From NCBI RefSeq assembly GCF_002834295.1, contig NZ_PISP01000003.1:310001-374000 (forward strand): 64,000 nt of DNA, written 5' to 3'. This stretch comes from Rhodohalobacter barkolensis. Its GTDB lineage: Bacteria > Bacteroidota > Rhodothermia > Balneolales > Balneolaceae. The translations under genes were made by a program, and so were the position numbers. The notes under the pieces were generated by a model, which ran no database searches, was not told the DNA's origin, and worked only from the letters and a program-made list of their open reading frames with translations. Below are positions 9,894 through 57,533 of this stretch, in pieces; the stretch's first letter is position 1, and the number at the start of each line of letters is the position of its first letter.

Positions 9894-9905
9894 AATTCAG
9901 CCTCC

Positions 9906-11201: not shown

Positions 11202-11640
11202 AAATCTGACTCTGTTTGGTTTATATTTACGTGTGAAATTAACATAGTTAAACGGAGCCTGTTTGTAAAAAGAAATAAAGACTGGCTTCAGGCTTCAGGC
11301 TTCAGAGGCGAGTTACGGAGAGAAACTGAAAGATGAAAGAGAATTTTGCTAATACGCTGAAAAGAAGGAAGATAAACTTCTCCTCTGGAGAGGAGACAGA
11401 ATCCGAAGTGTTCAGCGGAGGATTCAGAGGTGTGTTCCGCGCTGAATAGAATACTTACCTCAATGATTGTAGAGAATTTGAGATCTTTACTCCAAACAAC
11501 ACACCCCTCGCTAAATAAAGCCGACCAGGTCACTTTATTTACGCTTTTCCCCTCTCCGGAGGGGAAAATTTAGTAGCCGGAGCTGTGTGATTGTCGTTAC
11601 GGAGCAGAGCTCCGGACGAGGGAAGGCTCACATCTCAAAT
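11202..11640. repeat. Intergenic stretch with short repeats and a long hairpin
   Basis: No gene is visible. Three tandem copies of a CTTCAGG-type heptamer lie near 11283-11303. A near-perfect palindrome at 11545-11568 (TTTTCCCC, 8-base centre, GGGGAAAA) sits 72 bases beyond the metK stop. Between them, CTCTGGAGAG-type and TTCAGCGGAGG segments resemble the hairpin repeats seen elsewhere in the window. The hairpin lacks a T-run on the metK strand, so it is not scored as a terminator. Confidence 0.55.
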
Positions 11641-12792: not shown

Positions 12793-13015
12793 CAATTTTG
12801 TCTGTAGAAATTAATTCTTTGATTTAAAAAGCGGATTGAAAGTACGAAAATTTTGTAAGGTTTTCACTCAAAGATGACTTTATAAAACCTTCTTAGTTAA
12901 CCTGAAAGAAGTAAACGATCTCACTTTATGAATGAAATCTGCTCGATTTATGAAATTAAAGTTAGGCTTGGGATGAATAATTTTGATGGATTTTCAATGA
13001 CTTCCTACTGAAAAA

Positions 13016-31528: not shown

Positions 31529-31806
31529 ATGAATTCCCCTTTCTCAAAATCTTTTTGCAACACAGCAGTCAAAACACACTCTACAAAAAGAACTCTACTC
31601 TTAATTCAATTATTGAATCATTTTATTTCCAATAAATGGATGTATTAATAAAATCAGTTTTTATTGAAGCTATTCAATTATTTCGGAAAGTCAGATTACA
31701 ATCTCTTAATTAAACAGTCTCAATTATTAATTTTTATGAGCCCTAAACCACAAGACCTCGATTTTCATTAAAAATAACTCAAAAAAGTTTACACCTCTTT
31801 CGCTGA
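31529..31806. promoter_or_regulatory. Upstream region of the dehydratase with TTCAAT dyads
   Basis: ATTCAAT-T-ATTGAAT at 31604-31618 is a perfect 15-base dyad, and a second pair, ATTGAA (31663-31668) and TTCAAT (31673-31678), uses the same half-site. Both lie 75-150 bases before the dehydratase ATG on the minus strand. They could be operators; the AT-rich composition means chance cannot be excluded. Confidence 0.35.
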
Positions 31807-37055: not shown

Positions 37056-38030
37056 ATGGAAAAAGTTTTAGTTACAGGTGGAGCAGGATATATTGGATCA
37101 GTTTTGGTTCGATTGCTGCTCGAAAAGGGGTACAACGTTAGAGTATTTGACAATTTAAGTTTCGGCGGGGAGTCGATTGTAGATCTTCTGAATCACGATC
37201 GTTTTGAGTTTCTCAAAGGAGATATGAGAAATGAAGATGATTTAAAAAAAGCAGTAGATGGCATCGACTACATTGCACATCTTGCAGCGATTGTAGGTGA
37301 TCCGGCTTGCCGTAAATTTCCGGAAGATGCAAAAGCAATAAATCTTGAGGGTTCCAAAAGTCTCTACTCCATTGCCAATGAAGCCGGTGTGAAAAAATTT
37401 GTCTTTGCATCCACATGCAGCAATTATGGAAAGATGGATGATCCTGAAGCTTATGTAAATGAGGATTCGAAGCTGGCGCCTGTTTCACTCTATGCAGAAA
37501 CCAAAGTTGCTGTTGAAAAGTATTTATTGAACCAGCCAAAAACGAATAATTGCAAACCGACAAGTCTCCGCTTTTCAACAGTGTACGGGCTCTCACCCCG
37601 CCCTCGGTTTGACCTTACCGTTAATGAGTTTACACGAGAGCTTGCACTGGGTCGAGAACTTGTAATTTTCGGGGAGCAATTCTGGCGTCCTTACTGCCAT
37701 GTTGTTGACCTGTCTCGCTCTGTTATTGAAGTGTTTGAGGCTGATGATGAAGCAGTGGCTTATGATGTGTTCAATGTGGGCGATACAGACGAAAATTATC
37801 AGAAAGAAATGATTGTGAACGAAATTTTGAAGGTCATTCCCGATGGTAACATTAAATACGTTCAGAAAGATGAAGATCCCCGCGACTACAGGGTCTCATT
37901 TGATAAGATCAAGGATCGACTGGGTTTTAAAATAACAAAACGGGTACCTGATGGAATTAAAAATATCAAACAGGCTGTGGTCGATGGTTTCTTCCATGAT
38001 CCTGATGATTCAAGGTTCAGCAATATTTGA
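37056..38030 (+). CDS. NAD-dependent sugar epimerase/reductase (extended SDR)
   Basis: This 324-residue extended SDR has GGAGYIGS (8-15), HLAAIVGDPACRKFPEDAKAINLEG, FASTCSNYG and the catalytic YAETK (YxxxK). The STCSNYG stretch lacks the Thr-Asp-Glu triad of 4,6-dehydratases, so it is more likely an epimerase or reductase than LegB. It is the first gene of the + strand run that includes the nonulosonate genes. The substrate is unresolved. Confidence 0.85.
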   Translation: MEKVLVTGGAGYIGSVLVRLLLEKGYNVRVFDNLSFGGESIVDLLNHDRFEFLKGDMRNEDDLKKAVDGIDYIAHLAAIVGDPACRKFPEDAKAINLEGSKSLYSIANEAGVKKFVFASTCSNYGKMDDPEAYVNEDSKLAPVSLYAETKVAVEKYLLNQPKTNNCKPTSLRFSTVYGLSPRPRFDLTVNEFTRELALGRELVIFGEQFWRPYCHVVDLSRSVIEVFEADDEAVAYDVFNVGDTDENYQKEMIVNEILKVIPDGNIKYVQKDEDPRDYRVSFDKIKDRLGFKITKRVPDGIKNIKQAVVDGFFHDPDDSRFSNI

Positions 38031-38196
38031 GTCAGATTGAAACAGACAAAACGCCAAGTTTGATTTGCTAAACATTACCAGCAAATGGTTCAAAGAACTA
38101 AATGAATAGAACTGACCCATTGGAATTTGGTACTTGTTATTTAGAATTTCACCCTTAGAATTTCGATTTTCTTCTATCAACAATTTTATCGCATCT

Positions 38197-39345
38197 ATGA
38201 ACAAATTCAATAATACAGTTTCCTTTATACGGGATCAATTCAAAACTCCTGAAGCCTTTATCCCACTCCACGAACCCCGGTTTAAAGGTAAAGAGCGTAA
38301 ATATTTAATAGATGCCATCGACTCTACATTTGTATCTTCAGTAGGGGCTTATGTGGATAAATTTGAAAAAATGATGTGTGAGATTACAGGGGCACAGTAT
38401 GCGGTGGCCACAGTGAACGGTACCTCGGCTCTTCATGCTGCCCTGATTGTAGCAGGTGTGAAACCGGAAGACGAAGTAATAACCCAGCCGCTCACATTTG
38501 TAGCCACAGCCAACGCCATTGCCTATACCGGGGCAAAGCCTGTATTTACCGATGTAGACCGAGACACAATGGGTCTTTCACCTGCCAAACTCCAAACGTA
38601 TCTGCAAGAAAACTATTCCAAAAAAGATGGTGGGGCATTCCACAATAAGAGTGGAAACAGAGTCGCAGCCTGTGTGCCTATGCACACGTTTGGTCTGCCT
38701 TGCCGTATCGATAAAATTCAACATATCTGTGAAGAGTGGGGAATTCCGCTGATTGAAGATTCTGCCGAATCACTTGGAAGTACATACAAAGGAAGGCATA
38801 CAGGAACTTTTGGAAAACTCGGAGTATTCAGCTTTAACGGGAACAAAACGGTAACCTCAGGCGGGGGCGGTGCCATTGTTACAGATAACGAAGAGCTCGC
38901 AAAACTGGCTAAGCACATTACAACAACCGCCAAAAAACCTCATAAGTGGGAATATATACATGATCATGTTGGTTATAACTATCGGATGCCCAATCTGAAC
39001 GCAGCACTGGCGTGTGCACAGCTCGAACAGCTCGACTATTATATCGAAAACAAGCGCGAACTAGCCAAGAGTTACCGGGATTTTTTCAACAACACCGGAA
39101 TCGGCTTTGTCACCGAAATTGAAGGTGGATTCAGTAACTATTGGCTCAATGCCGTTTACCTTAAAAACCGGGAGGAACGCGATCAATTTCTGGCTTTCAC
39201 CAACGAGCAAGGAGTAATGACAAGACCGATCTGGCAACTCATGAATAAATTGAAGATGTACCGTGATTGTATGACAGGAGATCTTGAACATGCCGAATGG
39301 CTTGAAGACCGCATTGTAAATATCCCTAGCAGCGTTAGGGTATGA
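38197..39345 (+). CDS. LegC-like DegT aminotransferase
   Basis: The ATG at 38197 (MNKFNNTVSFIRDQF) gives 382 residues; the longer open frame adds a non-family leader. It has FIPLHEPRFKGKERKYL, SSVGAYVDKFE, NGTSALHAAL, EDSAESLGSTYKGRHTGTFG and the aldimine lysine K217 in SFNGNKTVTSGGGG. This matches the LegC group, which aminates a 4-keto sugar nucleotide in legionaminate synthesis. Its stop overlaps the next start by four bases (ATGA), and NeuD-, NeuB- and NeuA-like genes follow. Confidence 0.9.
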   Translation: MNKFNNTVSFIRDQFKTPEAFIPLHEPRFKGKERKYLIDAIDSTFVSSVGAYVDKFEKMMCEITGAQYAVATVNGTSALHAALIVAGVKPEDEVITQPLTFVATANAIAYTGAKPVFTDVDRDTMGLSPAKLQTYLQENYSKKDGGAFHNKSGNRVAACVPMHTFGLPCRIDKIQHICEEWGIPLIEDSAESLGSTYKGRHTGTFGKLGVFSFNGNKTVTSGGGGAIVTDNEELAKLAKHITTTAKKPHKWEYIHDHVGYNYRMPNLNAALACAQLEQLDYYIENKRELAKSYRDFFNNTGIGFVTEIEGGFSNYWLNAVYLKNREERDQFLAFTNEQGVMTRPIWQLMNKLKMYRDCMTGDLEHAEWLEDRIVNIPSSVRV

Positions 39346-39995
39346 AGCAGAAACCAATCATATTGGTCGGTGGAGGCGGTCACTGCAGGTCCGTAATCGA
39401 TATAATCGAAGAGGCAGGGAATTACAGCATCGTTGGTATTACCGACAAACAGGAAAAGATCGGCGAAATTGTTAGTGGCTATAAGATCTTCGCAGAGGAT
39501 GAACGTCTTCCCGAACTGATCAAAAAATATAAACACTGCGTTGTGACCGTGGGCCAATTAAAGAGTGCCAAACTAAAAACGAAGCTCTTCCAATTTGTAA
39601 ATGAATCAGGCGCAAAGCTTCCTGTTATCTCCTCAACACGAGCATATATTTCAAAGAATGCAGAGATCGGAAAAGGTACTGTGATAATGCATGGTGCTAT
39701 CGTAAACGCCGGAGCATCAGTTGGAGAAAATTGTATCATCAATACAAATGCCATTATAGAGCATGATGCAAAGATCGGCGATCATACACACATCTCCACG
39801 GGAGCAGTTGTGAACGGCCACTCCACTGTTGGGAGCCGCACGTTGATAGGAAGCGGTTGTGTAGTTTTGCAGCAGGTTAGCATCGGTGATGATATTATAG
39901 TAGGCGCAAACAGTACGGTGATTGAAGATCTAAGTGAAACGGGTGTCTATGTTGGTTCACCTACAAAAAAGGTTCATTCACAGAATGAGCATTGA
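39342..39995 (+). CDS. NeuD/PglD-type hexapeptide acetyltransferase
   Basis: A 217-residue protein with an N-terminal sugar-nucleotide-binding region (ILVGGGGHCRSVIDII) and a left-handed beta-helix of hexapeptide repeats from about 100 (AEIGKGTVIMHGAIVNAGASVGENCIINTNAIIEHDAKIGDHTHISTGAVVNGH, broken here only by notation). The catalytic-type histidine in IIEHDAKIGDH is present. It should acetylate the amino group installed by the LegC-like enzyme, with which it overlaps by four bases. Confidence 0.88.
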   Translation: MKQKPIILVGGGGHCRSVIDIIEEAGNYSIVGITDKQEKIGEIVSGYKIFAEDERLPELIKKYKHCVVTVGQLKSAKLKTKLFQFVNESGAKLPVISSTRAYISKNAEIGKGTVIMHGAIVNAGASVGENCIINTNAIIEHDAKIGDHTHISTGAVVNGHSTVGSRTLIGSGCVVLQQVSIGDDIIVGANSTVIEDLSETGVYVGSPTKKVHSQNEH

Positions 39996-40073
39996 AACGG
40001 TATATATCTTAATTTTAGCAACCTTTTCGCAACTCAATTTGATATGAACTCACTTTTAATTTCATTCTAAACA

Positions 40074-40952
40074 ATGTCTGAATCTGTTTGCCTTTTTACA
40101 GTAGTTTATCCGGGATGTGAGCCTTATCTCGACCGGTTCATGCAGGCTGTGGAGGAACAGGATTATAAGGAGTTCGAGCTACTGGTTTTGAATGACGGGC
40201 TTCAAAATTTTGATCACTTTGCAAAGAAAACAGAAAGACCGGTTCGCTCAGTTGCTGTTAGCGGAAGTATTGCAGCCGTTCGTGAAAAGGGTATAGCTAT
40301 GCTTGCTGAAAGCGACTATGATGTGATTATTTTCGCTGATGCAGATGATTACCCTGCACAAAATCGAATCGAAATAGCGATTGGGAAGCTGGAACAGTGT
40401 GATGTTTATGTTAACGATTTGACTACTGTTGACAAATATGAACAAATTCTGACAAAAACCTACTTCTCTCACCGGCTCGGCAGTAGGTTCGAGATTACCT
40501 CAGACTTTATTCTTCAAAAAAATATCATTGGTTTGGGCAATACCTCTGTAAGAAAAACAGCTCTGCGAAAAATAAAAATCCCGCATGATACCATTGCTGT
40601 TGACTGGCTGCTGTTTACTGAGATGCTGCATCGTGGACAAAAAGCTATTTTCACCAACGACACAACTACATTCTACCGTCAACACGAAGAAAATACGGCA
40701 GGCTTCAAAAAACTGTCGCCCGAGAGACTGGAGCACTCCCTCAAAGTACAGTTACAAAATGCTTCCTATTTTAGAGAAGAGTCGAAAAGCCATCTTAAGT
40801 GGCATAAAAAACTTGTTAAACTACAATCCACCATTACTCAAAACGGATATATTAAAGACGACTATATAAATAATCTAGAATTGATGCTGCCTCAGTATCC
40901 GCTGTGGTGGGAAGAGATTAAATACTTAAACGAAATCATACAGAACTCATGA
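40074..40952 (+). CDS. Family 2 glycosyltransferase
   Basis: This 292-residue protein has a GT-A fold: LFTVVYPGCEPYLDRFMQAVEEQDYKEFELLVLNDG, then the metal-binding FADADDYPAQ (DxD-type) near 85. It ends in a basic helical tail. It overlaps the NeuB-like gene by four bases (ATGA), so it is co-translated with nonulosonate synthesis and may transfer that sugar or a neighbour in the repeat unit. The acceptor and donor are not readable. Confidence 0.85.
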   Translation: MSESVCLFTVVYPGCEPYLDRFMQAVEEQDYKEFELLVLNDGLQNFDHFAKKTERPVRSVAVSGSIAAVREKGIAMLAESDYDVIIFADADDYPAQNRIEIAIGKLEQCDVYVNDLTTVDKYEQILTKTYFSHRLGSRFEITSDFILQKNIIGLGNTSVRKTALRKIKIPHDTIAVDWLLFTEMLHRGQKAIFTNDTTTFYRQHEENTAGFKKLSPERLEHSLKVQLQNASYFREESKSHLKWHKKLVKLQSTITQNGYIKDDYINNLELMLPQYPLWWEEIKYLNEIIQNS

Positions 40953-42004
40953 ACATTCAACTCACACCCGGCTTTACCGTAGATAACTTCACCAATCCAT
41001 ACATCATAGCAGAAATTGGATCCAATCATAATGGTGATATGGACCTTGCCCGTAAAATTATTGATGCGGCTGTGAAAACCGGTGTTCATGCTGTTAAGTT
41101 TCAATCCTGGACTCCTCAATCTCTTATTGCGAAAGAGGAGTATAAGGCGAACACCGTTTACACGGACGATCCAAAAAAGCATTGGGGTTCACTTCGTGAG
41201 ATGGTTGAGGAGTACTACCTCCGTGAAGAACAACACGCAGAACTGAATGAGTACTGTAAGAGCAAGGGAGTTGATTTCTGCTCCACTCCTTTTTCTGAAG
41301 AGGAGGCCGATCTGCTCATGGAGTTGGACGTCCCCTTTTTCAAAGTTGCATCGATGGATATCAATAACCTGAGGCTGCTTCGTTACCTTGGCAACACCGG
41401 CAAACCGGTGATCTTATCAACCGGGATGGCAACAATGGGAGAAATTGAGCAGGCCATACTTACTGTTGAAGAAACAGGTAATAAAAACATCGTGCTACTA
41501 CACTGTGTATCGGTCTATCCTCCTGAAATGGAAACGATCAATCTGAGAAATATCACCACACTGCAGCAGGCATTTGGTTACCCGGTCGGATTTTCGGATC
41601 ACACCATCGGTTCAGCTATCCCCCTGGCATCTATTGCACTTGGAGCCTGCCTCATTGAAAAGCACTTCACCATAGATAAAGACCTGCCGGGATGGGATCA
41701 CATGATTTCAGCTGACCCGGATGAAATGAAGGTAATCACATCAGAATCAGAAAACATCGTTACCTCACTCGGTTCAACCCGCAGGGTAATTTCAGAAGCT
41801 GAGAAAGAGAAAATGCCGAAAATGCGCCGAAGTATTGTGACTTCCCGAAGTCTCAAAAAAGGAGAAATTATTCAGGCTAATGACATTTTATTCAAACGTC
41901 CCGGTACAGGCATAGCACCCGATCAAGAATCTATTGTGGTGGGCAGAAAAGTAATCAGAAATATAGACCAAGATGTTGTATTGAGATGGGATGATTTTGA
42001 ATAA
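40949..42004 (+). CDS. neuB: Nonulosonate synthase, LegI/NeuB type
   Basis: A 351-residue NeuB-family enzyme that condenses phosphoenolpyruvate with a six-carbon amino sugar. Visible features are IIAEIGSNHNGDMDLARKII, VKFQSWTPQSLI, FFKVASMDINNLRLL, LSTGMATMGEIEQAI and HCVSVYPPEMETINL. EKHFTIDKDLPGWDHMISADP and a C-terminal SAF (antifreeze-like) domain at about 290-350 follow. The SW-, SMDINN- and VSVYPPE-type stretches are those I associate with legionaminate rather than sialate or pseudaminate synthases. The required 2-epimerase is not in the window. Confidence 0.92.
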   Translation: MNIQLTPGFTVDNFTNPYIIAEIGSNHNGDMDLARKIIDAAVKTGVHAVKFQSWTPQSLIAKEEYKANTVYTDDPKKHWGSLREMVEEYYLREEQHAELNEYCKSKGVDFCSTPFSEEEADLLMELDVPFFKVASMDINNLRLLRYLGNTGKPVILSTGMATMGEIEQAILTVEETGNKNIVLLHCVSVYPPEMETINLRNITTLQQAFGYPVGFSDHTIGSAIPLASIALGACLIEKHFTIDKDLPGWDHMISADPDEMKVITSESENIVTSLGSTRRVISEAEKEKMPKMRRSIVTSRSLKKGEIIQANDILFKRPGTGIAPDQESIVVGRKVIRNIDQDVVLRWDDFE

Positions 42005-42112
42005 AAAATAATCGTATAACATTGGCTCCGAAGATTGATCGGTTAGCCTTAGTAAAGACTCACGATTTTTCAGAACAAATGTAATTACATTATGACCAAA
42101 AATTAAACCATT

Positions 42113-42793
42113 ATGATTGCGATAATACCGGCCAGAGGTGGATCAAAAGGTTTACCGGGTAAAAACATTAAACCCTTGAACGGAAAACCACTCATTGTAT
42201 ACACAATAGAGGCAGCACTCACATCAGACTACATTTCTGAAGTAATCCTTACTACAGATAGTGATGAAATAGCCTCAGTTGCCCAAGAAGCCGGTGCAAC
42301 TATTCCGTTTATGCGACCAACTGAGCTTGCCGGAGATAAAAGCAAAGCGATCGATGTTTACATATACACCATCGAAAGACTCAAAAAAGAAAAGGCTATT
42401 GAAGTACACGATTTTATTGTACTTCAGCCAACCTCCCCCTTGCGCCTAAAAGAAGACATTGATGCATCCATACAATTGTTCAGGCAAAAAAAAGCAGATT
42501 CCGTCATTTCTGTGACCGAAGCCTCCCACCCACCGGTATGGGCGAAAAAAATAACCCCCGAAGGTACCCTTTCAGACTATTTTCCCGAGTATTCAACAAA
42601 CGCAAACCGACAGGAAATTGAACCCGCATACATGCCTAACGGTGCAATTTTTATTTTTAAATATAGTTTACTTAAAGATAAATACAGATACTATTTCAGC
42701 CGAACTTATCCCTATATCATGCCGGCAGAGAGATCCGTTGATATTGACTCTCAACTTGATTTTGATTTCGCCGAGTTTCTCCTTAGTAAATAG
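42113..42793 (+). CDS. neuA: Nonulosonate cytidylyltransferase (NeuA/LegF type)
   Basis: A 226-residue CMP-sugar synthetase. It has the signature IPARGGSKGLPGKNIKPLNGKPLI (written here in two parts: IPARGGSKGLPGKN and IKPLNGKPLI), then TTDSDEIASVAQEAGA, LQPTSPLR and the C-terminal VDIDSQLDFDFAE. It should activate the nonulosonate with CTP for transfer. The gene follows the synthase after 108 bases and is followed by a repeat-bearing gap of 478 bases. Confidence 0.92.
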   Translation: MIAIIPARGGSKGLPGKNIKPLNGKPLIVYTIEAALTSDYISEVILTTDSDEIASVAQEAGATIPFMRPTELAGDKSKAIDVYIYTIERLKKEKAIEVHDFIVLQPTSPLRLKEDIDASIQLFRQKKADSVISVTEASHPPVWAKKITPEGTLSDYFPEYSTNANRQEIEPAYMPNGAIFIFKYSLLKDKYRYYFSRTYPYIMPAERSVDIDSQLDFDFAEFLLSK

Positions 42794-43213
42794 AAATCTG
42801 TTGCCTGAGTTTAATCATAGGTTATACTACTGATTTCTTTTGACATTCTAACTTAAACTCAACAAAATTAAGGGTAACTAACTGCACCTTATAGCTTAAT
42901 TCCATAACATTAAATACAGCAGATAGTAAATTTTGTAGATTAAATAACGTGAGTTCGACATAAGAATCTTGAATTTGACTCTCCCCTCCTGTGTAAGGAG
43001 GGGTTGGGGGAGGTTGCTTTGATGATTTCAGGCTTCAAATCGAATCTGAATTTGATTTGAACTACCTCTAAATCCCATCATCGAAAAAGGTGGGGATTTT
43101 TTCAATGCCTTTACATTCTTTTTATATCGAGTTCACGTTAAATACATTACTGAAATTTCCTTCTTAAAACTTCTACGAAACGGGTTAAATTTAAAATACG
43201 GAAATGCACATAC
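42794..43213. repeat. Intergenic stretch with CCCCTCC-type hairpins
   Basis: No gene is seen. CCCCTCCT/AGGAGGGG (42983-43003) forms a strong hairpin, and AAATCCC/GGGATTT (43070-43099) forms a second one followed by a T-run (43097-43102), which could terminate + strand transcripts far downstream of neuA. The same hairpin style occurs at 18848 and 51221. Confidence 0.6.
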
Positions 43214-43248
43214 AATCAATTCATTTCAGCTCTTTGAATGAATTGATT
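43214..43248. promoter_or_regulatory. 12-bp perfect inverted repeat before the PtmE-like gene
   Basis: AATCAATTCATT (43214-43225) is matched by AATGAATTGATT (43237-43248) with an 11-base spacer, 23 bases before the start codon. It may be an operator or leader hairpin. It is too AT-rich to be a convincing terminator. Confidence 0.5.
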
Positions 43249-43271
43249 CTATTTCAAAATACGGGTGGCTT

Positions 43272-44336
43272 ATGAAAAATTTTGAAACCAATCTTATAAA
43301 TAAAGATTCATCTCTGGAAGATGCTATAAGACTATTAAATCACATTTCAGATAATCTTCCTAACCAGCCTCTGACTCTCTTGGTTGTAAATAGCGATAAC
43401 CGGTTGTTTGGAACTTTAACAGACGGGGATATCAGGAGGACTCTCCTTGCCGGTACAGCCATGAAAGATTCAGTATCGTCATTTATGAACAAAGACTATA
43501 CTTTCATCAAGAAAAATGGATTAAACCATTACAATGTAAAAAAATACGTAGAAGAAGGAATTCAACTTATTCCAATGTTGAATGACAAAAACCAGATTGT
43601 AAAAGTTTATGACTTAAGTGAAATCAAATCGATACTGCCCATTGAGGCTGTTATCATGGCCGGCGGTGAAGGAACCAGACTCAGACCACTTACATATGAT
43701 ACCCCCAAACCTATGCTGCATGTGGGTGATAAACCCATACTGGAAAGAAACATGAACCGGCTAATATCCTATGGAATTGAAAACCTTACAATTTCTATTC
43801 GTTACTTAGGTGAACAAATTACATCCTATTTCGGAAATGGAGAACAAAAAGATGTTAATATCAGATATATTCGTGAGGAAAATCCGCTGGGAACTGCCGG
43901 CAGCCTGAGTCTTATCGATTCTTTTCATGCCGAAACAATACTTCTTACAAATTCAGACATATTAACTACGCTGGACTACGAAGAGTTTTATCTCGATTTT
44001 GTAAATCGAGGCGCTGACATATCCATCGTTACTATACCTTATCGCGTAAAAGTTCCTTACGGTGTATTTGAAATGAATGGTGATCATATTGCTGCACTCA
44101 AAGAAAAGCCTGAATACACTTACTACTCAAACGCCGGAATCTATCTTATTAAAAGAGAACTGATCAATCAGATTCCAAAAAATCAGCCTTTGGATATTAC
44201 TGATTTTATTGAGCAGCAAATTTCCAACGGAAAGAAAGTTACATCATTTCCTTTTTGGGGGTATTGGCTGGATATAGGTAAACATGAAGATTTTGAGAAT
44301 GCGCAGAAAGCCATTCAAATCCTTGACAGTTATTAA
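43272..44336 (+). CDS. ptmE: CBS-domain nucleotidyltransferase, PtmE-like
   Basis: This 354-residue protein joins an N-terminal CBS pair (about 10-118, LLVVNSDNRLFGTLTDGDIRR and VKVYDLSEIK) to a nucleotidyltransferase domain with MAGGEGTRLRPLTYDTPKPML at about 129-149, SDILTTLDYEE and FWGYWLDIGKHEDF. This is the architecture of Campylobacter PtmE, which primes the GDP-linked route to legionaminate by making a GDP-amino-sugar. Its place after LegC-, LegI- and LegF-like genes supports that role. It could alternatively act on another hexose-1-phosphate or on heptose. Confidence 0.8.
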   Translation: MKNFETNLINKDSSLEDAIRLLNHISDNLPNQPLTLLVVNSDNRLFGTLTDGDIRRTLLAGTAMKDSVSSFMNKDYTFIKKNGLNHYNVKKYVEEGIQLIPMLNDKNQIVKVYDLSEIKSILPIEAVIMAGGEGTRLRPLTYDTPKPMLHVGDKPILERNMNRLISYGIENLTISIRYLGEQITSYFGNGEQKDVNIRYIREENPLGTAGSLSLIDSFHAETILLTNSDILTTLDYEEFYLDFVNRGADISIVTIPYRVKVPYGVFEMNGDHIAALKEKPEYTYYSNAGIYLIKRELINQIPKNQPLDITDFIEQQISNGKKVTSFPFWGYWLDIGKHEDFENAQKAIQILDSY

Positions 44337-49013: not shown

Positions 49014-49796
49014 TTATTCAAACACATTATCACGAAACCAATTTCGAACTATTGCAGCATGTTCGTGAATAGCTTTTGTTAAATAACCAATATTGTTATA
49101 AGACGGTATAAGTGAAAAATCAAAATATGATATTCCCTTAGACCTATAAGTAAAATTTGTCGGTGATGCCAAAGGTTCACTTACAAATTTACTAAACTCA
49201 TACATAGCTCTTGGCATATGAGCTGCATCAGTCACAATAATCACCTGCTGACCTGCATAAATTTTTTCATAGTATTGCTGCGCTTCGTGATAAGTGGTAA
49301 GAGTCTCAGTAAGTGTTATTATGGACTCTGGATCCACTCCAAGCTCAACTGCCGTTTTTTTAGATATTTCTGCCTGAGAGATACCTTTTGAAAACGCATC
49401 ACGTCCGGACGTAATCAGTTTACTGTTTGGCAAGGAGTTATGCAGACGAATGCCTTCTATTAATCTTATAAGCGTTTTATCTAAAAGAATCGAATTCGGC
49501 GGAAACCGATTATTGTTTCTCCTGTAGCCTGCCGCAAGCACCACTACATGATACTCCAAATCCAAATTTAGTGTTTCCTCTTCGTTGATAATCGGATCAT
49601 ATTGATCCTCAAGAGAGGTAAGCAAAAATTTTGGAACCATTGGGGTAGATATAATAAAAAACCATACGGTTGACACAATGAGTATTCTCAGACCCGTTTT
49701 GTGCTTCTTAAGGAAAAAGAAAACCAACGACACTACGAGAAGTAACCAAAATACGGTGAAAGGGTTCAGTATAAACTTTATGGCTTCAGTCGACAT
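49014..49796 (-). CDS. YdcF/ElyC (DUF218) family membrane-anchored protein
   Basis: A 260-residue protein with two N-terminal membrane segments (about 11-29 and 34-50) and a periplasmic DUF218 domain: HVVVLAAGYRRNN, SKLITSGRDAF, TLTETLTTYHEAQQY, and VIIVTDAAHMPRAMYEF with the family H-P-R-A. Relatives are linked to envelope stress and lipid-carrier metabolism, but a defined enzymatic step is not settled. It is the last gene of the run with the sugar transferase and acyltransferase. Confidence 0.85.
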   Translation of the reverse strand: MSTEAIKFILNPFTVFWLLLVVSLVFFFLKKHKTGLRILIVSTVWFFIISTPMVPKFLLTSLEDQYDPIINEEETLNLDLEYHVVVLAAGYRRNNNRFPPNSILLDKTLIRLIEGIRLHNSLPNSKLITSGRDAFSKGISQAEISKKTAVELGVDPESIITLTETLTTYHEAQQYYEKIYAGQQVIIVTDAAHMPRAMYEFSKFVSEPLASPTNFTYRSKGISYFDFSLIPSYNNIGYLTKAIHEHAAIVRNWFRDNVFE

Positions 49797-49879
49797 ATAA
49801 TATTATTAATTCTGATCGTACAATCACAGTACTAACATCTTGATTGCACAATAAAACCAATGTTATCACTTCAATCAGA

Positions 49880-50488
49880 CTAGTTTGTGCCATCGAAAGG
49901 TACCATCGTTTTCTCTTCAGATTGATTAATCCCTTCCCGTTTTATTACTTTCAAAATCGTGAGCCACATTATTTTCATATCCAGCAAAAAGGTGAGATTT
50001 TCAATATAGTAAACATCCAGTTTAAACTTTTTTGACCAACTTATTGCATTCCTTCCATTTACCTGGGCCCATCCTGTTATACCGGGTCGCACATTGTGCC
50101 GCTTTCTCTGCTCATCGCTATATAGTGGAATATATTTAAAAAGAAGTGGGCGGGGCCCAATCATACTCATCTCTCCTTTTAATACATTGATAAGTTGAGG
50201 TAGTTCGTCCAAAGACAGCTTCCGAACCCCTTGCCCAAGCCAGGTAATGCGCTCACTGTCCGGAAGCAGGTTTCCCTCAGCATCTTTTTCATCCGTCATC
50301 GTTTTAAACTTCACAATATAGAAAGGCTCTTCCATATATCCCGGTCGTTTTTGATAAAAAAAAGCACTTCCCCGGTTTTGGATTGACAGTAATAGGGCCA
50401 CAAGTAATAAAATCGGAAAAGTGATAGTCAGTAGGACAAAAGCTGCTGCAATATCGAATAAGCGTTTCAAATAATTCCTGTAAATCAT
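49880..50488 (-). CDS. PglC-like phosphoglycosyl transferase
   Basis: This 202-residue protein is a small monotopic phosphoglycosyl transferase. It has a reentrant N-terminal membrane segment (LFDIAAAFVLLTITFPILLLVALLL), then FFYQKRPGYMEEPFYIVKFKTM, LDELPQLINVLKGEMSMIGPRPL and RHNVRPGITGWAQVNGRN. The catalytic DE dyad is normally the LDELPQL region. The small size without an extra membrane domain matches PglC, which loads a bacillosamine phosphate onto undecaprenyl phosphate. It is 13 bases from the acyltransferase gene, in one operon. Confidence 0.92.
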   Translation of the reverse strand: MIYRNYLKRLFDIAAAFVLLTITFPILLLVALLLSIQNRGSAFFYQKRPGYMEEPFYIVKFKTMTDEKDAEGNLLPDSERITWLGQGVRKLSLDELPQLINVLKGEMSMIGPRPLLFKYIPLYSDEQRKRHNVRPGITGWAQVNGRNAISWSKKFKLDVYYIENLTFLLDMKIMWLTILKVIKREGINQSEEKTMVPFDGTN

Positions 50489-50501
50489 TTTCCGAGACTC
50501 A

Positions 50502-51158
50502 TCAGTTCGATTTGGGTATAGCGATAACTCTCTCTTTTATCTTATAAAAAACAGTTGAATCATCTTCCACATTTTTATCCAGAGTCATACCCGCCGCTAT
50601 TTTGTTTCTACTCCCGACTGAGAGTCCGGGAATTGTAGCACTGTTTATACCAAACATATTTTCATCTCCAACCTTCGTAAACCCGGAAAGACAAACATTC
50701 GGCCCAATAAAATTAAAGTCGCCTATTTCGCAGTCATGTGAAACGCTGGCCCGCGCATTTATCAGACTGTATCTTCCAATCTTTGCATTCGGACCAATAT
50801 TGCAGTGGTATGAAATTACAGAACCCGTACCGATCTCCGCAGACTCGGAGACAAAACTCTCAGGATGGATATAGGTGATAAACTTTGCGCCTTTTCCAAG
50901 AAACTCTTCCACTATCTTTCTGCGATATGTCAGATTGGCTATCCCGATCAGATATTCGCAATCGGAGCGAATCTCATGGCCTTTTATCGAACCGAGCAGG
51001 GGTGCCGAAAACATGTAGCGATGATAGTTATCCGGATTATCATCCAGGTATCCCAGAATTTTTATTGGATCATCCTTGCCGGATTTATTGCCATAGCGGA
51101 TGTAATCATCAAGCTCTGCTCCATGGCCGCCGGATCCTACGATGATGATGTTTTTCAT
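50502..51158 (-). CDS. PglD-like hexapeptide acyltransferase
   Basis: A 218-residue protein with an N-terminal nucleotide-sugar region (IIIVGSGGHGAELDDYIRYG) and hexapeptide repeats from about 104 (AEIGTGSVISYHCNIGPNAKIGRYSLI...VSHDCEIGDFNFIGPNVCLSG). The catalytic-type histidine is in ASVSHDCEIGD. It should acylate the 4-amino group made by the PglE-like aminotransferase. With the acyl carrier protein and KAS III genes upstream, the donor may be a longer acyl-ACP or CoA ester rather than acetyl-CoA. This is the second enzyme of its type in the locus. Confidence 0.88.
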   Translation of the reverse strand: MKNIIIVGSGGHGAELDDYIRYGNKSGKDDPIKILGYLDDNPDNYHRYMFSAPLLGSIKGHEIRSDCEYLIGIANLTYRRKIVEEFLGKGAKFITYIHPESFVSESAEIGTGSVISYHCNIGPNAKIGRYSLINARASVSHDCEIGDFNFIGPNVCLSGFTKVGDENMFGINSATIPGLSVGSRNKIAAGMTLDKNVEDDSTVFYKIKERVIAIPKSN

Positions 51159-51524
51159 TTTTGGTTTAGGCTTTGTAAAATTTTTGAGTTCATTGCTCTT
51201 TTTATTGGACTCACCCCTGTCCCCTCTCTATTCTGATAGAGAGGGGGACTCTTTAACGAAATAAATATCGTAATATAACGTCAGTTTTACATAAGGAATT
51301 GAACAGAAAAAGTCCCCCTTCGAAGGGGGGATGAGGCTCGCAAGAGCCGAGGGGGATGACACGCTGAGTGTTAATTTGACTCTAATAATTAAATTTTACC
51401 CTTAATTTCACTACAGTTCATCCCCCATTGCCCCCCTTCAAAGGGGGACACTCTTTAATAAAAACTTACACCGAACTCACATTAAGTTAGAAATTGAATA
51501 TCGAATTCTTATCACTATAAACCA
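51159..51524. repeat. Hairpin-rich repeat island
   Basis: Three strong hairpins lie in 230 bases: CCCCTCTCTAT/ATAGAGAGGGG (51221-51246), CCCCCTTCGAAGGGGG (51314-51329) and CCCCCTT/AAGGGGG (51432-51447), with GGCTC/GAGCC (51335-51348) between. The segment AAAGTCCCCC/GGGGGACACTCTTT is repeated in inverted order at its ends. There is no gene, and it splits the acyltransferase/PglC operon from the reductase gene upstream. Confidence 0.75.
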
Positions 51525-52289
51525 TCATCTGGCGGTGTAGCCGCCGTCTACAAACAAGTTTGTTCCGGTAACCCATGCGGATGCATCGCTCAACAGATAC
51601 ACAGCGGCATGGGCTACGTCTTCAGGCTTGCCAAGGCCTAATGGGTGAAGCGCTTCAATCTTACCACGCGCTTCTTCATTCCGGCTGTATACGGCACTAT
51701 CGGTCATCGGTGTTTCTACAACACCCGGAGAAATACAGTTTACGCGAACCTTCTTCGAAGCCAGTTCAACAGCAAGTGACCGGGAGGCAGCCAATAGGGC
51801 TCCCTTTGTCAAACTGTAGATAAATTTTCCCGATTCACCCACACTTCCCATCACCGATGAGAGAAAAACGATACTCGAACCGCTTTCAGGCAGCATTTTC
51901 TTCCGTGTTATCCACTTACACAGATAGATCGCTGCGGTAACATTCACATCTACAAATGTTTGAATCTTTTCCGGGTTAAAAGCCCTGAGAGGTAGAGTGG
52001 TAGAAATACCTGCGCTATTTATAATTCCGTTTATCTTTATCCCTTCTGCTTCGAAGGACTCCATCATACGGTCTACCTGATTAAAATCCGTAAGCTCAAC
52101 ACTATAGGATATATGTTTTTTTTTATTATCCAGTAGTTTCAGGGTTTGATGAAGCCTTTCTTCATCCCTGCCCAGCGCAATAATTCTCGCACCCGCTTCA
52201 CTGCACGCCACAGCACATGCCCGTCCAATACCGGACGATGCGCCGGTTATGAGTATTGTACTGCTGGCTAATGAGAATGGGCTATTCAT
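51525..52289 (-). CDS. FabG-like short-chain reductase
   Basis: A 254-residue classical SDR with TGASSGIG (16-23), NSAGIST, the catalytic serine in VFLSSVMGS and YSLTK (YxxxK). The closing GTNLFVDGGYTAR is typical of 3-oxoacyl-ACP reductases and relatives. With an acyl carrier protein and KAS III encoded upstream it probably reduces a 3-oxoacyl group to a 3-hydroxyacyl group for a sugar. A sugar-oxidising role is the main alternative. Confidence 0.82.
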   Translation of the reverse strand: MNSPFSLASSTILITGASSGIGRACAVACSEAGARIIALGRDEERLHQTLKLLDNKKKHISYSVELTDFNQVDRMMESFEAEGIKINGIINSAGISTTLPLRAFNPEKIQTFVDVNVTAAIYLCKWITRKKMLPESGSSIVFLSSVMGSVGESGKFIYSLTKGALLAASRSLAVELASKKVRVNCISPGVVETPMTDSAVYSRNEEARGKIEALHPLGLGKPEDVAHAAVYLLSDASAWVTGTNLFVDGGYTAR

Positions 52290-52341
52290 GGCGTAAAAAT
52301 CTCATAAGAAGATGAAATGTATTTTGTTAAGATCATAGAAG

Positions 52342-52830
52342 CTAAACCTCACTGTTTTCTTTAAGCAGCTTACCCAATGGAAACTCTTTGTCAATATAAT
52401 AGATGCGCACCGTACTGACCCCCTTCATTTTCTTAAATATTGACAGGACCTCATGCATAACAATTCCAACAATATTCACCCCTTCCTCTTTATAAATACG
52501 GCTGCACTCTTCATGAAGCGCCATATGAACAATCGTGATTCTCTCTTCTGAATCACGAACGTACATGACCGCACCAATTAAAGCGGCACCCTCATAATCT
52601 CCGTCAAAAATATGCAGGGTCTGGCCAATCTCCCTTTCTTTAAAGACGAGCGCAACTTCTCCGTTTTCTTCTACAACAATCGGTTTTGAATACTCTTTTA
52701 TGGACTGATTAATACGGTCTACATAACGCGACTGATTGCGGTTAAAGTAGAACATACTGTCCAATTCAGGCCTATAGCCAGAATCAATACTCGATTTGAA
52801 ATGAATAACAACATCTTCTCTATTCAACAT
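52342..52830 (-). CDS. Small protein of unknown function in the acyl gene set
   Basis: This 162-residue protein has a beta-strand-rich pattern (PIVVEENGEVALVFKEREIG, AALIGAVMYVRDSEERITIVHMALHE) followed by an amphipathic helix (NIVGIVMHEVLSIFKKM) and a strand (VSTVRIYYI). The order loosely recalls an N-acetyltransferase (GNAT) fold but I see no firm motif. It lies between the KAS III and reductase genes (52 and 87 bases), so it probably works with them, perhaps as an acyl transfer or accessory protein. Confidence 0.55.
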   Translation of the reverse strand: MLNREDVVIHFKSSIDSGYRPELDSMFYFNRNQSRYVDRINQSIKEYSKPIVVEENGEVALVFKEREIGQTLHIFDGDYEGAALIGAVMYVRDSEERITIVHMALHEECSRIYKEEGVNIVGIVMHEVLSIFKKMKGVSTVRIYYIDKEFPLGKLLKENSEV

Positions 52831-52917
52831 GAACCAACAGGATATATTTTAAAACTCTCTTTTTCCGGGATTAACGGACAGTGAATTATTTTGAATTTTC
52901 AAACTCATGTAAACCTG

Positions 52918-53982
52918 TTAAACTTCAACGAGACTGGATATATGTACCTTACTTGTATTGATAACAGCTGAAGCCCAGGACATCCCAACTCCAAATCCGC
53001 ACAGCAGAAGTTTTTTCTGTTTTTCACCCTTCAATTCGTCTTTTAATTCTGAAACGATTGTGAGAGGAATGGATACGGAGGAGGTATTCCCAAAACGATC
53101 AAGAGATATGGGCATTTTATCACTATCCAGCTTCAGCTTTTTTCCCAGATAGTTATTCATATAGATATTGGCCTGGTGCAGAACAAAAAAGTCAATGTCT
53201 TCCTTATCAGCTCCTGCATATTCCAGTGTATGCCTGATATCTTTCGGGATTTCCCGTATGGCAAAATTAAATACATCCGCTCCGTTCATGTATCCGTGTT
53301 CATCGGTTCGGATATTCCCGTACTCATCCACTACCTTTTCCTTTAGCGTTTCCGGCGTACTTGGGTTTCTGTAACCCCCGGCGTCCATTTTTATCAGATC
53401 CTGACGGCTTCCGTCTGAATTAAGAGAAAAATAGCTTTTGCCGTATGCTTCATCCCGTGAAATCAACGCCGCAACACCGCCGTCTCCGAAAAGAAAAGCC
53501 GTTTTCCGATCTTTTGGATGATACACCTTCGAGCGTGTTTCACCATCTAACAATAGCACATTTTTAAAACCCTGCTGCTGCATAAAAGAGTATGCAACCG
53601 ACATACCGTATACAAATGCTGAACAACCCAGATTCATATCAAACGCCAGAGTAGACTTTGGAAGACCAAGCCGGTCCTGCAGAATCACTGAGCTTGCAGG
53701 CATCCGGTAATCGGGAGTTTGAGAAACAAAAATGAGGGCATCTATATCTTCAGCTTTAACTTCATTATCTTCCATCAGCTTTTTAGCGGCATGAAAACAG
53801 AGGTCTGATGCAGTCATCCCCTCTGTTACAAAACGGCGCTCTTTAATACCCGTCTTTTCTACAATCTCCTTCACATCCTCGGCCGGAAAGTGCTCAGTGT
53901 ATGTCAGATTATCAATTATATTTGCAGGTACAGCCGCCGCCATCGCTTTTATACCAATGTTCTCAAACGTTAAATTTGCCAT
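52918..53982 (-). CDS. 3-oxoacyl-ACP synthase III (KAS III-like)
   Basis: A 354-residue condensing enzyme with the complete KAS III triad: C120 in NLGCSAFVYG, H269 in LHQANIYM and N299 in FGNTSSVS. It is slightly longer than housekeeping FabH (about 320), with an insertion near 205-235 (RNPSTPETLKEKVVDEYGN). It should condense a starter acyl-CoA with malonyl-ACP on the dedicated carrier encoded 104 bases upstream. No malonyltransferase, dehydratase or enoyl reductase is nearby, so the product would stop at the 3-oxo or 3-hydroxy stage. Confidence 0.9.
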   Translation of the reverse strand: MANLTFENIGIKAMAAAVPANIIDNLTYTEHFPAEDVKEIVEKTGIKERRFVTEGMTASDLCFHAAKKLMEDNEVKAEDIDALIFVSQTPDYRMPASSVILQDRLGLPKSTLAFDMNLGCSAFVYGMSVAYSFMQQQGFKNVLLLDGETRSKVYHPKDRKTAFLFGDGGVAALISRDEAYGKSYFSLNSDGSRQDLIKMDAGGYRNPSTPETLKEKVVDEYGNIRTDEHGYMNGADVFNFAIREIPKDIRHTLEYAGADKEDIDFFVLHQANIYMNNYLGKKLKLDSDKMPISLDRFGNTSSVSIPLTIVSELKDELKGEKQKKLLLCGFGVGMSWASAVINTSKVHISSLVEV

Positions 53983-54086
53983 CTCTTCCCTGCTTTCTTA
54001 TTAATTTTAAATTCCAATATAGAGAGTATCTTCCGAAAATCTACCTGATAGCTGCTTTAGGACTTTTGGAATTTGGTCACTCCTCA

Positions 54087-54311
54087 CTATGCCTTTGCCT
54101 TCACAGCTTCCAGAAGATCTTTAACTGTTTCGAGCTTTCGAAACTCTTCATTCTCAATTTCTACACCAAATTCCTCATCCAAAGTTGCAATCATAGAGAG
54201 GTAGGCCAATGAATCCCAATCCTCGTACTCCCGAAAGTTATCTGAAAGATTGATTTCAAGATCTTCATTATCCATTGCCTCTCTGAATGCGTCAAATATT
54301 TTTTCTTCCAT
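54087..54311 (-). CDS. Dedicated acyl carrier protein
   Basis: A 74-residue acidic helical protein with the phosphopantetheine site DSL at 33-35 (S34) in YEDWDSLAYLSM, followed by FGVEIENEEF. Its sequence is that of a specialised rather than housekeeping carrier (DSLAYLSM instead of DSLDTVEL). It is the first gene of the acyl set and is encoded next to KAS III. Confidence 0.92.
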   Translation of the reverse strand: MEEKIFDAFREAMDNEDLEINLSDNFREYEDWDSLAYLSMIATLDEEFGVEIENEEFRKLETVKDLLEAVKAKA

Positions 54312-54434
54312 AGATTTATTAAATATGTTTATGGTTGTTCATTACAATCTTATCAACATTCTGTTGCGTATGCAATTAGAAAGTGATAATAAGATGCGTC
54401 AAACATGTGATATTTTTTAATGTGGATTGAACAT

Positions 54435-54531
54435 AAACATGGTATGTCTGTTTAAACTAAATTCAAAGATCTCCCTACAGACCGGCTTTTGTACTGAACC
54501 ATGAATGGCGAGAGACAGACATACCATGTTT
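54435..54531. mobile_element. 97-bp element with perfect 16-bp terminal inverted repeats
   Basis: AAACATGGTATGTCTG (54435-54450) and its exact inverse CAGACATACCATGTTT (54516-54531) bound a 65-base interior. One end lies one base from the stop codon of the deacetylase gene (54533). The size and perfect ends suggest a MITE-like element or a stable hairpin. No target duplication is obvious and no transposase gene is present. Confidence 0.55.
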
Positions 54532-54532
54532 C

Positions 54533-55438
54533 TTAATCCGAAATCTCAAAAACCGGTAACTCTGCAGCCTCCTGCTTTTCCTTAATAATATCAATGATCG
54601 GTTTTGATCCGGATAATGCCATAAGCTTTCTAAACTTCTCTTCAACTGTATTCCTGAACAACCAATTTGAACGAAGGGAAAGATTCTTTTTAATCGACGC
54701 TTTTTTAAGTTCAGTGAAGAAATACTCCGGATATCTTTGATTATCCAATTCATAAGGATGGATATAAACTACAACAGGTTTTTCCTTTTGAACCTTTTTG
54801 AAAAATTTTTTTGTCATATTGTATGGAAGTAACCGTAAATAACTCCCGCCGCATGTCGGGATTTCTCTGCTCAAGAACTTAGTTGTGGACATTGGAACTT
54901 CAATAATCCTATTTCCATTTGCAGTATTTACCATCACAATATTTTTACTAAACTCCGGCCATCCATAACGAAGGCCTTTGCAGGGCATAATACTGCTGTC
55001 GTACGTAAATCCGCATTTTGCAATGACATCCAGCCCCCAACTCGTCTTCGGATTTATAGAAAACGCAGGAGCCCGGTGCCCGTATACTTCTTGCCCAGAA
55101 AGATCTTCTATTAGCTTTTTTGCACTGTCCAACTCTTGGAAGGCTTTCTCCGGCGTCATTTTTGAAAAAATAAGATGATTGTAGCCATGCACAGCCAATT
55201 CATGGCCTTCACTACCTATTCTTTTTACAAGTTCAGGGTAGTGTTCTGCAATAATTCCCAGTATGAAAAATGTCCCTTTAAAACTTTTCTCTGAAAATAT
55301 CTCCAATATTCTCTCAGTATGCTCAAAGACCCTGTCAGTTGGATCCATTTTAACTCCAAACGCATCCCTCATGGCGATGCTTATACCATCTTCTACATCA
55401 ACAGTAAAAGATGCGATATTTGTATCTAAATGACTCAT
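54533..55438 (-). CDS. Polysaccharide deacetylase (NodB homology domain)
   Basis: This 301-residue enzyme has motif 1 FTVDVEDG (12-18), motif 2 HGYNH (H84 and H88, metal ligands), motif 3 GHRAPAFSI near 135, and later YDSSIMPCKGLRYG and VVYIHPYELD. The DVED first motif and the GHRAPAFS stretch match the DUF3473-associated group of exopolysaccharide deacetylases. It should remove N-acetyl groups from the glycan. It overlaps the upstream deacetylase-like gene by four bases (ATGA). Confidence 0.9.
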   Translation of the reverse strand: MSHLDTNIASFTVDVEDGISIAMRDAFGVKMDPTDRVFEHTERILEIFSEKSFKGTFFILGIIAEHYPELVKRIGSEGHELAVHGYNHLIFSKMTPEKAFQELDSAKKLIEDLSGQEVYGHRAPAFSINPKTSWGLDVIAKCGFTYDSSIMPCKGLRYGWPEFSKNIVMVNTANGNRIIEVPMSTTKFLSREIPTCGGSYLRLLPYNMTKKFFKKVQKEKPVVVYIHPYELDNQRYPEYFFTELKKASIKKNLSLRSNWLFRNTVEEKFRKLMALSGSKPIIDIIKEKQEAAELPVFEISD

Positions 55439-56568
55439 TTCGACATTTTCTTCTCTCCAGCGATAATATCACCGAGTTGATCAGATGTTATAAACTCCAC
55501 ATCCGGCCAGTTCTTCATTATTGCTGATAGCAATTCATCCAGTTGTTTTAAACCTCGTTTCCGGTTGCTCTCCTCAAGTGCCCCAATGTAGTTTACCCGA
55601 TGAGTACTGATAACGGCCGGTTTTCTCATTCTGAATGCAATTTTTATATCACTTAGACAAGAAGACACCCAATCTTTACCCTCCTCACTCGGTTCAAAAA
55701 CACAATTCCGTGTAAGGATTAATTGGCCGTGTTCATTTTGCCTACCGGGAATATGGAAAACTGTTCGCGTTTCCCCCCACCCTAAGGGCTCTATCTGCCT
55801 CTTAGCTTTAGATATATATTTAATGCCATATTCGTAAGCTGTTTTTTCAAGCGAATTATTAAATGGGCCGTTTGGCGGGACAAAGAATATGGCTCTGTAT
55901 CCGAATATCGTTTCAAACATATGCAGGCCCTCGATAATGGACTGCTCCTGCACCTGCAAATCTTTCGGGTCATACAGGTCGAATGCTGCCTGAAAACTGC
56001 TAATTCTTGTATTATCTCCATCACCCAATCTTAATCCCCAAAAACCATGGTCAAATGCTATACAATTGGTTTTATCACTGTTTTGCAGTGAGCGCATCCA
56101 CTCTGCCACGTTCAAATGTTCCCGGCCGTGAAACTGAGGTTTAAATACACCGGCTTTCATTCCCTGCTTCCACGTTTCCATGATATTGTTGTTCTCACCA
56201 TAATATCTTTTCAGTGTTTCAGGAAAAGGCTCTGCATAGTACTTCTCAAAATTTTCCTCTTTAATCTTTTCAAAATCGGGATTGCCTGTAATGGTTACAG
56301 GAGTCATCACTGCAGGATTTCCATCTCCACCTATGTACCTGCTCAATACCTCAAATAACTCTTCCAGGTCATCAGCTTTAGCGAGCGTATCGTAACGATT
56401 ATAGCGATTACCTTCATCTATAATTCCTTTTTCAAGAAGCTGTGCACGGTCTATTGAGGTGGGCATTCGTATGCTGCCCCAATCGTCTGACTCAATCACT
56501 AGCAATTTACGTTTTGTACGCCAACCCGGAAAATTGCTAACGTGTCGTTTAAATTCGTTAATTATCAT
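55435..56568 (-). CDS. NodB-like protein with SDDWG motif
   Basis: A 377-residue protein with a deacetylase-like frame: VIESDDWGSIRMP (D28 and D29 as motif 1), HGREH (H147 and H151, matching HxxxH), FVPPNGPFN near 250 and VISTHRVNYIG near 320. A 118-residue stretch separates motifs 1 and 2, longer than in standard NodB. The function is probably deacetylation or another carbohydrate hydrolysis. It is co-translated with the adjacent deacetylase. Confidence 0.7.
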   Translation of the reverse strand: MIINEFKRHVSNFPGWRTKRKLLVIESDDWGSIRMPTSIDRAQLLEKGIIDEGNRYNRYDTLAKADDLEELFEVLSRYIGGDGNPAVMTPVTITGNPDFEKIKEENFEKYYAEPFPETLKRYYGENNNIMETWKQGMKAGVFKPQFHGREHLNVAEWMRSLQNSDKTNCIAFDHGFWGLRLGDGDNTRISSFQAAFDLYDPKDLQVQEQSIIEGLHMFETIFGYRAIFFVPPNGPFNNSLEKTAYEYGIKYISKAKRQIEPLGWGETRTVFHIPGRQNEHGQLILTRNCVFEPSEEGKDWVSSCLSDIKIAFRMRKPAVISTHRVNYIGALEESNRKRGLKQLDELLSAIMKNWPDVEFITSDQLGDIIAGEKKMSK

Positions 56569-56681
56569 AAGTTTAAATATACCTTAATACTCATCTTCAT
56601 TTATATTGAACAAAGATATTTAATTTTACTAGAGATAATATTATGTTCCTTTTTATTTTTTAAACGATAAATTCACTATTT

Positions 56682-57533
56682 CTATTTATACCATCGCCTA
56701 TAAAATTTTTTTATGTTAGATATATTTATTTCAGACGTTCTAAACTTCAATTGCCGATTAATGTGAAATGACAATGTGTTCATACTCCTCGATAACTTAC
56801 TCTTCCCTCTGCTTTTGTCAATTTTAACAAATTCCTTAACCTTAAACTTTGGCCAAATATTATCTCTGACATACTTATATAGTTTTATGTCGTTTTCATT
56901 CTTTTCATGAATAAAATCTAAATGATTTTTATACACATTTTTTTTTACTTCTTGGTCAGCAAGATTTTTATTGCTTCTTTCTATTTCAAAATAGAAGTTA
57001 TTTAAATTAAAGTGTGATTTAAATGAGTATAAGCTTTCTTCATACTCTTCAGTAAGGCCAACCCATTCTATCTTTTTTTCTAGTAGCTCCACAGCCTTAT
57101 CAAAATTATTTTCTCCTGCGATAAACCTTGTTTGATAATTTGAAAAATTATAAAACTTATCCCATTCAATAATTGTTGAATCCTTCATTACTTTGTGACT
57201 ATTATGAGAAAAATGATTAGTCCATTTATAGTCATGAAGATAATGTGAAACAAACCGTTTGGTCGGTTCTCTGAAAAAAGTAAACCAAACCATATTTTTT
57301 TCATGCTCTCCAAAATCTATGTACGGTCTCATCGGGTGGCCACTAATTAGTTTTAGCCTCTGATGTAGTTTTTTATAATCATTTATAAACTTCTCCTTAT
57401 TATAATAATCATCATTCATCAGGAGTCCACCCGGCACAATATGCATTTTGCTTCCGTAGTGTGCAATCAACTGCTTGCTAAGACTAGTACCTGCAGTTTT
57501 CATCATATGAGAAAAAACAAGCATCTTATTCAT
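56682..57533 (-). CDS. Sulfotransferase family protein
   Basis: A 283-residue protein with a PAPS 5'-phosphosulfate loop (MMKTAGTSLSKQL, about 10-22) and a 3'-phosphate-binding stretch (FTFFREPTKRFVSHYLHD, near 88-105). It probably sulfates a sugar of the surface glycan. It is notably AT-rich and lysine- and asparagine-rich compared with the ATP-grasp and glycosyltransferase genes, suggesting separate ancestry. It follows the HAD gene after 2 bases. Confidence 0.8.
   Translation of the reverse strand: MNKMLVFSHMMKTAGTSLSKQLIAHYGSKMHIVPGGLLMNDDYYNKEKFINDYKKLHQRLKLISGHPMRPYIDFGEHEKNMVWFTFFREPTKRFVSHYLHDYKWTNHFSHNSHKVMKDSTIIEWDKFYNFSNYQTRFIAGENNFDKAVELLEKKIEWVGLTEEYEESLYSFKSHFNLNNFYFEIERSNKNLADQEVKKNVYKNHLDFIHEKNENDIKLYKYVRDNIWPKFKVKEFVKIDKSRGKSKLSRSMNTLSFHINRQLKFRTSEINISNIKKFYRRWYK

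Follow-up and report, generated by a model that had tools for sequence, protein, structure and literature searches.

A compact gene set of Rhodohalobacter barkolensis, at positions 49880-54311 of the window (the whole 64,000-nucleotide stretch of contig NZ_PISP01000003.1 that was analysed), probably builds the N4 acyl group of a bacillosamine-type sugar in a single round of ACP-borne acyl synthesis and is dedicated to this task. This reading is based on the genes, their intact catalytic motifs, their synteny, and the association of an altered acyltransferase tail with neighbouring acyl carrier protein (ACP) genes. Cisar et al. 2019 (PMC6519341) proposed the same pathway for Flavobacterium psychrophilum, drawing on gene content and on a glycan of solved structure. 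New here are the tail marker on the acyltransferase and a one-KAS variant of the already proposed system.

The set comprises six open reading frames, all on the minus strand, and both their positions and their family matches agree with the initial annotation. The ACP (54087-54311, 74 residues), predicted to be dedicated, scores 37.2 bits against PF00550 (cut-off 20.8), has Ser34 in a DSL motif, and adjoins KAS III in homologous loci. The FabH-like KAS III (52918-53982), the predicted condensing enzyme, is assigned to this type by its NF006829 score (269.6 bits, cut-off 249) and by a Cys-His-Asn triad that is intact, as had been claimed (Cys120, His269, Asn299); against TIGR00747 it scores 238.9, below the cut-off of 292.1. 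A 162-residue protein (52342-52830) with a predicted GNAT fold and a presumed accessory role is followed by an SDR (51525-52289; PF13561/PF00106), a probable 3-oxoacyl-ACP reductase. The SDR falls below every FabG equivalog cut-off shown (TIGR01830, 160.9 vs 297.75) and has intact catalytic residues (Asn116, Ser145, Tyr158, Lys162). The predicted PglD/NeuD-like sugar N-acyltransferase (50502-51158) exceeds the cut-offs of PF17836 (33.4 vs 23.4 bits) and of the Hexapep family PF00132 (53.5 vs 27), reaches 156.5 bits with TIGR03570, just short of the cut-off of 160.8, and keeps the active-site histidine, His141. Last comes a PglC-like polyprenyl-phosphate sugar-phosphate transferase, the initiator (49880-50488; PF02397, 206 bits).

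The reported lack of a dehydratase, an enoyl reductase and a malonyltransferase was borne out, none being found among the ten proteins scanned at 49014-57533. A complete housekeeping plsX-fabH-fabD-fabG-acpP-fabF operon is located on another contig of the genome; the ACP/KAS III/SDR set is therefore an extra one, and a housekeeping role of the KAS III, which is 32% identical to the FabH of the same genome, is ruled out. Beside the cassette, the product of 55435-56568 matches no Pfam family above cut-off, and relatives of it are often found close to the cassette elsewhere. By eye it resembles two proteins of locus L005 (2093-3226 and 13550-14704), these 377- to 384-residue proteins being repeated in the cluster. 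Just past the window end, L005 also holds four related-looking proteins of 354-370 residues in a row (8973-13563), ATP-grasp-like by eye.

In the proposed pathway, the KAS III would condense malonyl carried on the dedicated ACP with a CoA starter, for which acetyl-CoA is the likeliest candidate; malonyl loading would presumably fall to the housekeeping FabD. The 3-oxo group would then be reduced by the SDR, giving an acyl that is most likely 3-hydroxybutanoyl. A UDP-4-amino sugar, probably of the bacillosamine type, would be supplied by PglF and PglE. The PglD-like enzyme would transfer the 3-hydroxyacyl group straight from the ACP to the 4-amino group of this sugar, and the PglC-like enzyme may then initiate the glycan by placing the acylated sugar-1-phosphate onto the lipid carrier.

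Such sugars are known. Bacillosamine N-acylated by 3-hydroxybutyryl or 3,5-dihydroxyhexanoyl has been described, and a review lists bacillosamine with (S)-3-hydroxybutyryl in Pseudoalteromonas and QuiNAc4N with (S)-3-hydroxybutanoyl in Plesiomonas (PMC3210612). The O-antigen of F. psychrophilum bears a 3,5-dihydroxyhexanoyl group, and its wfp locus contains two KAS genes. The R-group genes wfpC-wfpG encode an ACP, KAS, a 3-ketoacyl reductase and a PglD homolog proposed to transfer the hydroxyacyl onto UDP-Qui2NAc4N; the N-acyl groups that such genes place on diamino sugars influence the antigenic type (PMC6519341). The window likewise combines ACP, KAS, ketoreductase and a PglD homolog in one surface-polysaccharide cluster, and its PglE and PglF homologs belong to the same locus, at 29618-32985, about 17 kb from the PglC gene. 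In contrast to the two different KAS genes of wfp, however, it has a single KAS III, and the predicted product of this one-KAS version is most likely 3-hydroxybutanoyl instead of 3,5-dihydroxyhexanoyl.

Solved acyltransferases offer partial parallels. Campylobacter jejuni PglD (3bss) and VioB (7txp) share with the window protein a PglD_N domain and a left-handed beta-helix, an active-site HD/HE pair and the same acceptor type; the window PglD differs in having FxKxKER for GxPxK, Met191 in place of the Ala, Ser or Thr of ordinary Bacteroidota members, and a donor predicted to be acyl-ACP. The 3-hydroxybutanoyltransferases FdhC and QdhC also place 3-hydroxybutanoyl onto a sugar amine (PMC4869667). 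Their acceptors, however, are 3-amino sugars and not bacillosamine; furthermore, the solved complex of FdhC (5ktc) holds coenzyme A as product and appears among GNAT structures.

Loci with a related KAS III were gathered by a named-genome scan (15 loci, 65-85% identity), a phylum search and a Flavobacterium search, yielding 25 loci at about 56% KAS III identity or more once duplicates were removed. A PglD-family gene lies within 3 kb in 22 of these 25 non-redundant loci, and this synteny rules out a chance neighbourhood of the cassette genes. The order PglC-ACP-KAS III-SDR-PglD, often continued by PglE and PglF, forms a single run in Flavobacterium, Lewinellaceae and other Bacteroidota, some of them distant relatives; in Balneolales, too, the ACP/KAS III/SDR set adjoins PglD. 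Locus L013 agrees with the window in every gene from ACP through PglC, the 162-residue protein among them, and also in the two upstream deacetylase-type genes. The initial annotation had proposed a search for conserved synteny and had named, as grounds for abandoning its reading, genomes where the bacillosamine genes stand apart from the ACP/KAS/SDR set; the search was positive, and linkage in one gene run across Bacteroidota was found instead. As far as sequence can tell, synteny and the published wfp precedent both support a hydroxyacyl set serving a bacillosamine-type sugar.

Positions for the PglE-like aminotransferase (31807-32985, minus strand; PF01041) and the PglF-like UDP-GlcNAc 4,6-dehydratase (29618-31528, minus strand; PF02719) were missing from the initial annotation. 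PglE homologs (53-62%) follow PglD in several other cassettes, and PglE and PglF stand directly or nearly directly after PglD in L015, L016, L017, L053, L078 and L175. Since other genomes often keep this order, the arrangement in the window resembles a dispersed form of it. Between PglE/PglF and PglC lie, among others, plus-strand legionaminic-type nonulosonate genes (37056-44336) encoding LegB-like, LegC, NeuD, NeuB, NeuA and CBS-nucleotidyltransferase proteins. A family 2 glycosyltransferase gene (40074-40952) accompanies them, and none of the genes scanned in this stretch was recognisable as a LegG-like 2-epimerase. The presence of these genes, together with the 3-hydroxybutyramido nonulosonic acid of the Flexibacter maritimus O-antigen (PMC3210612), would fit a hydroxyacyl group destined for the legionaminic-type nonulosonic acid and not for the initiating sugar. 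This destination is very improbable: the legionaminic-type genes have their own NeuD (39342-39995) with a GxPxK-type tail, and most other cassettes sit beside PglC/PglE/PglF, with no nonulosonate genes recognised in the stretch examined.

The SDR and PglD genes of the window are separated by a spacer of about 365 bp (51160-51524), a feature that the initial annotation did not mention. It contains two copies of a palindromic element, CCCCCTTYGAAGGGGG, which also reads as a minus-strand terminator; the palindrome CCCCCTTCGAAGGGGG has TTTTT shortly after it. The palindromic GTCCCCCTTYGAAGGGGG element (51312-51449) occurs in 8 copies in the genome, compared with 0 for the reversed control. Because this terminator-like palindrome precedes them, PglD and PglC may have their own promoter in this genome. 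The palindrome also bears on the possibility that the PglD-like protein is an ordinary CoA-dependent N-acetyltransferase, the ACP/KAS/SDR acyl being destined for something else that the same surface-polysaccharide cluster makes (a different sugar, a lipid or a glycan decoration). TIGR03570, which describes sugar acetyltransferases, points the same way, as does one of the three loci without linked PglD: while L011 and L049 are ended by contig edges, L012 is a real exception, a close cassette (KAS III 84%) that has no adjoining PglD and possesses a different, distant one. We nevertheless regard an ordinary acetyltransferase as improbable. In most other loci PglD is directly downstream of the set, the tails of 27 of 27 cassette-type proteins differ from that of ordinary PglD, and no ACP genes lie close to the ordinary PglD genes sampled from the phylum.

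The GxPxK motif forms part of the CoA site in left-handed beta-helix acetyltransferases; a literature search for a statement of what exactly the GxPxK loop does when CoA is bound returned none. Ordinary PglD members carry this motif, whereas the window protein ends in an FxKxKER tail. Across the cassette PglD clade, the C-terminal GxPxK is replaced by FxRxKE[KRQS]; the one-KAS cassette proteins show [YF][YFH][RK]xK[EQ][KR] followed by a short strand-like end, and no GxPxK. All 27 distinct proteins with the FxRxKE tail are encoded near ACP and KAS III genes. When selection was made on PglD alone, 11 of 11 tailed matches besides the window were near ACP and KAS III genes, against 0 of 28 ordinary GxPxK members near ACP genes in a PF17836 search of the same phylum (Fisher p about 6e-10, phylogeny ignored). 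Other positions separate the two groups as well: Met191 is present in 27/27 tailed proteins and replaced by Ala, Ser or Thr in 32/32 ordinary Bacteroidota members, Asn185 occurs in 27/27 tailed proteins, and several further non-tail positions are discriminating.

In the phylogeny, a single clade (support 100/97) unites the tailed proteins; second PglD copies from L021 and L022, both with GxPxK, belong to it as well. The tail label needs two changes. Because the label changes only about twice, the strong association between tail and ACP represents few independent events. The two clusters concerned each encode two PglD copies (L021, 6826-7470 and 9827-10498; L022, 6257-6907 and 9922-10596), of which one ends in GVPGK and the other has the FxRxKE tail, both within the same clade, and constitute a natural test pair for CoA versus ACP use.

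The altered tail suggests, at the level of sequence, that the acid is taken from a carrier protein and not from coenzyme A: the basic FxRxKE tail would replace the GxPxK-built part of the CoA site and would suit an acidic ACP. Its position in the PglD structure model is not placeable because confidence there is low (pLDDT <50). Loci with the wfp-like, two-KAS gene order (L023, L050-L052, L183, L186, L187) have ACP genes and yet keep GxPxK, as GNPAK or GVPAK; L183, L186 and L187, likened to wfp by gene order, differ in this from the window. The presence of an ACP thus does not force the tail, and for the same reason acyl-ACP transfer is kept here as a prediction. The two-KAS PglDs may accept ACP in some other way; alternatively, the tail signifies something else.

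The association holds across two kinds of acyl module. A search of Flavobacteriaceae with tailed PglDs alone retrieved six more, all beside ACP and divergent KAS III genes (31-38%) and mostly with an AMP-ligase; L192-L194 provide three more tailed PglDs of this AMP-ligase/divergent-KAS III type. In such Flavobacteriaceae clusters (L078, 9553-15441; L079, 6458-10306; L080, 6559-10363; L082, 5633-10343; L083, 5351-10347; and L192-L194), an AMP-ligase-like gene, one or two ACPs and a divergent KAS III lead to a tailed PglD. L078 additionally encodes a formyltransferase-domain protein and a metallo-beta-lactamase-fold protein. Clusters of this kind give the impression of assembly lines whose product is a sugar acyl group that is N-formylated or unusual in some other way.

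The 162-residue protein belongs to no Pfam or NCBIfam family in profile scans, and no GNAT model matched it. Almost all structures that match its model (pLDDT 82) are GNATs (best Z 9.7, rmsd 3.4, 129 aligned residues), and a GNAT fold is predicted from this model; in a Foldseek search with it, no match reached E 0.001 (best E 1.2e-3). Among eight sequences of the family, Asn30, Gln33, Asp76, His102 and Tyr145 are invariant, and no R/QxxGxG/A loop was seen by eye. A Pfam scan of eight homologs gave nothing firm, PF00583 appearing at E 0.0031 in one. Full-length matches were found in 5 of 394 genomes, and homologs adjoin ACP, KAS III or SDR genes in L023, L026, L027 and L028, of which L027 has no KAS III. 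A part in the core reaction is unsupported, the gene being present in a minority of loci and missing from most one-KAS cassettes; an accessory role in acyl transfer or acyl tailoring is a guess.

These observations also bear on the identity of the acyl group. The module might operate as described and deliver something other than 3-hydroxybutanoyl, either through a non-acetyl starter of the KAS III or through the GNAT-like protein altering the acyl before or after transfer. We consider this unlikely, though less so than the other alternatives. In its favour, the GNAT-like protein shows polar positions that are invariant and it accompanies ACP/KAS/SDR sets, and the AMP-ligase and formyltransferase genes beside other tailed PglDs indicate that acyl groups vary; on the other hand, the GNAT-like gene is missing from most one-KAS cassettes, and the core reaction can therefore do without it.

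A broader reading, to which we give an even chance, is that a PglD subfamily swapped the GxPxK part of its CoA site for a basic ACP-docking tail, and that Bacteroidota plug different ACP-borne modules (KAS III and SDR; AMP-ligase, formyltransferase and two ACPs) into one bacillosamine pathway, thereby diversifying the surface sugar. If the tail marks ACP-fed PglDs, sequence alone would reveal which genomes use custom acids instead of acetate, and these enzymes would offer a simple way to study how a sugar acyltransferase selects ACP in preference to CoA. The module provides a compact and testable connection of fatty-acid-type chemistry with the diversity of glycans.
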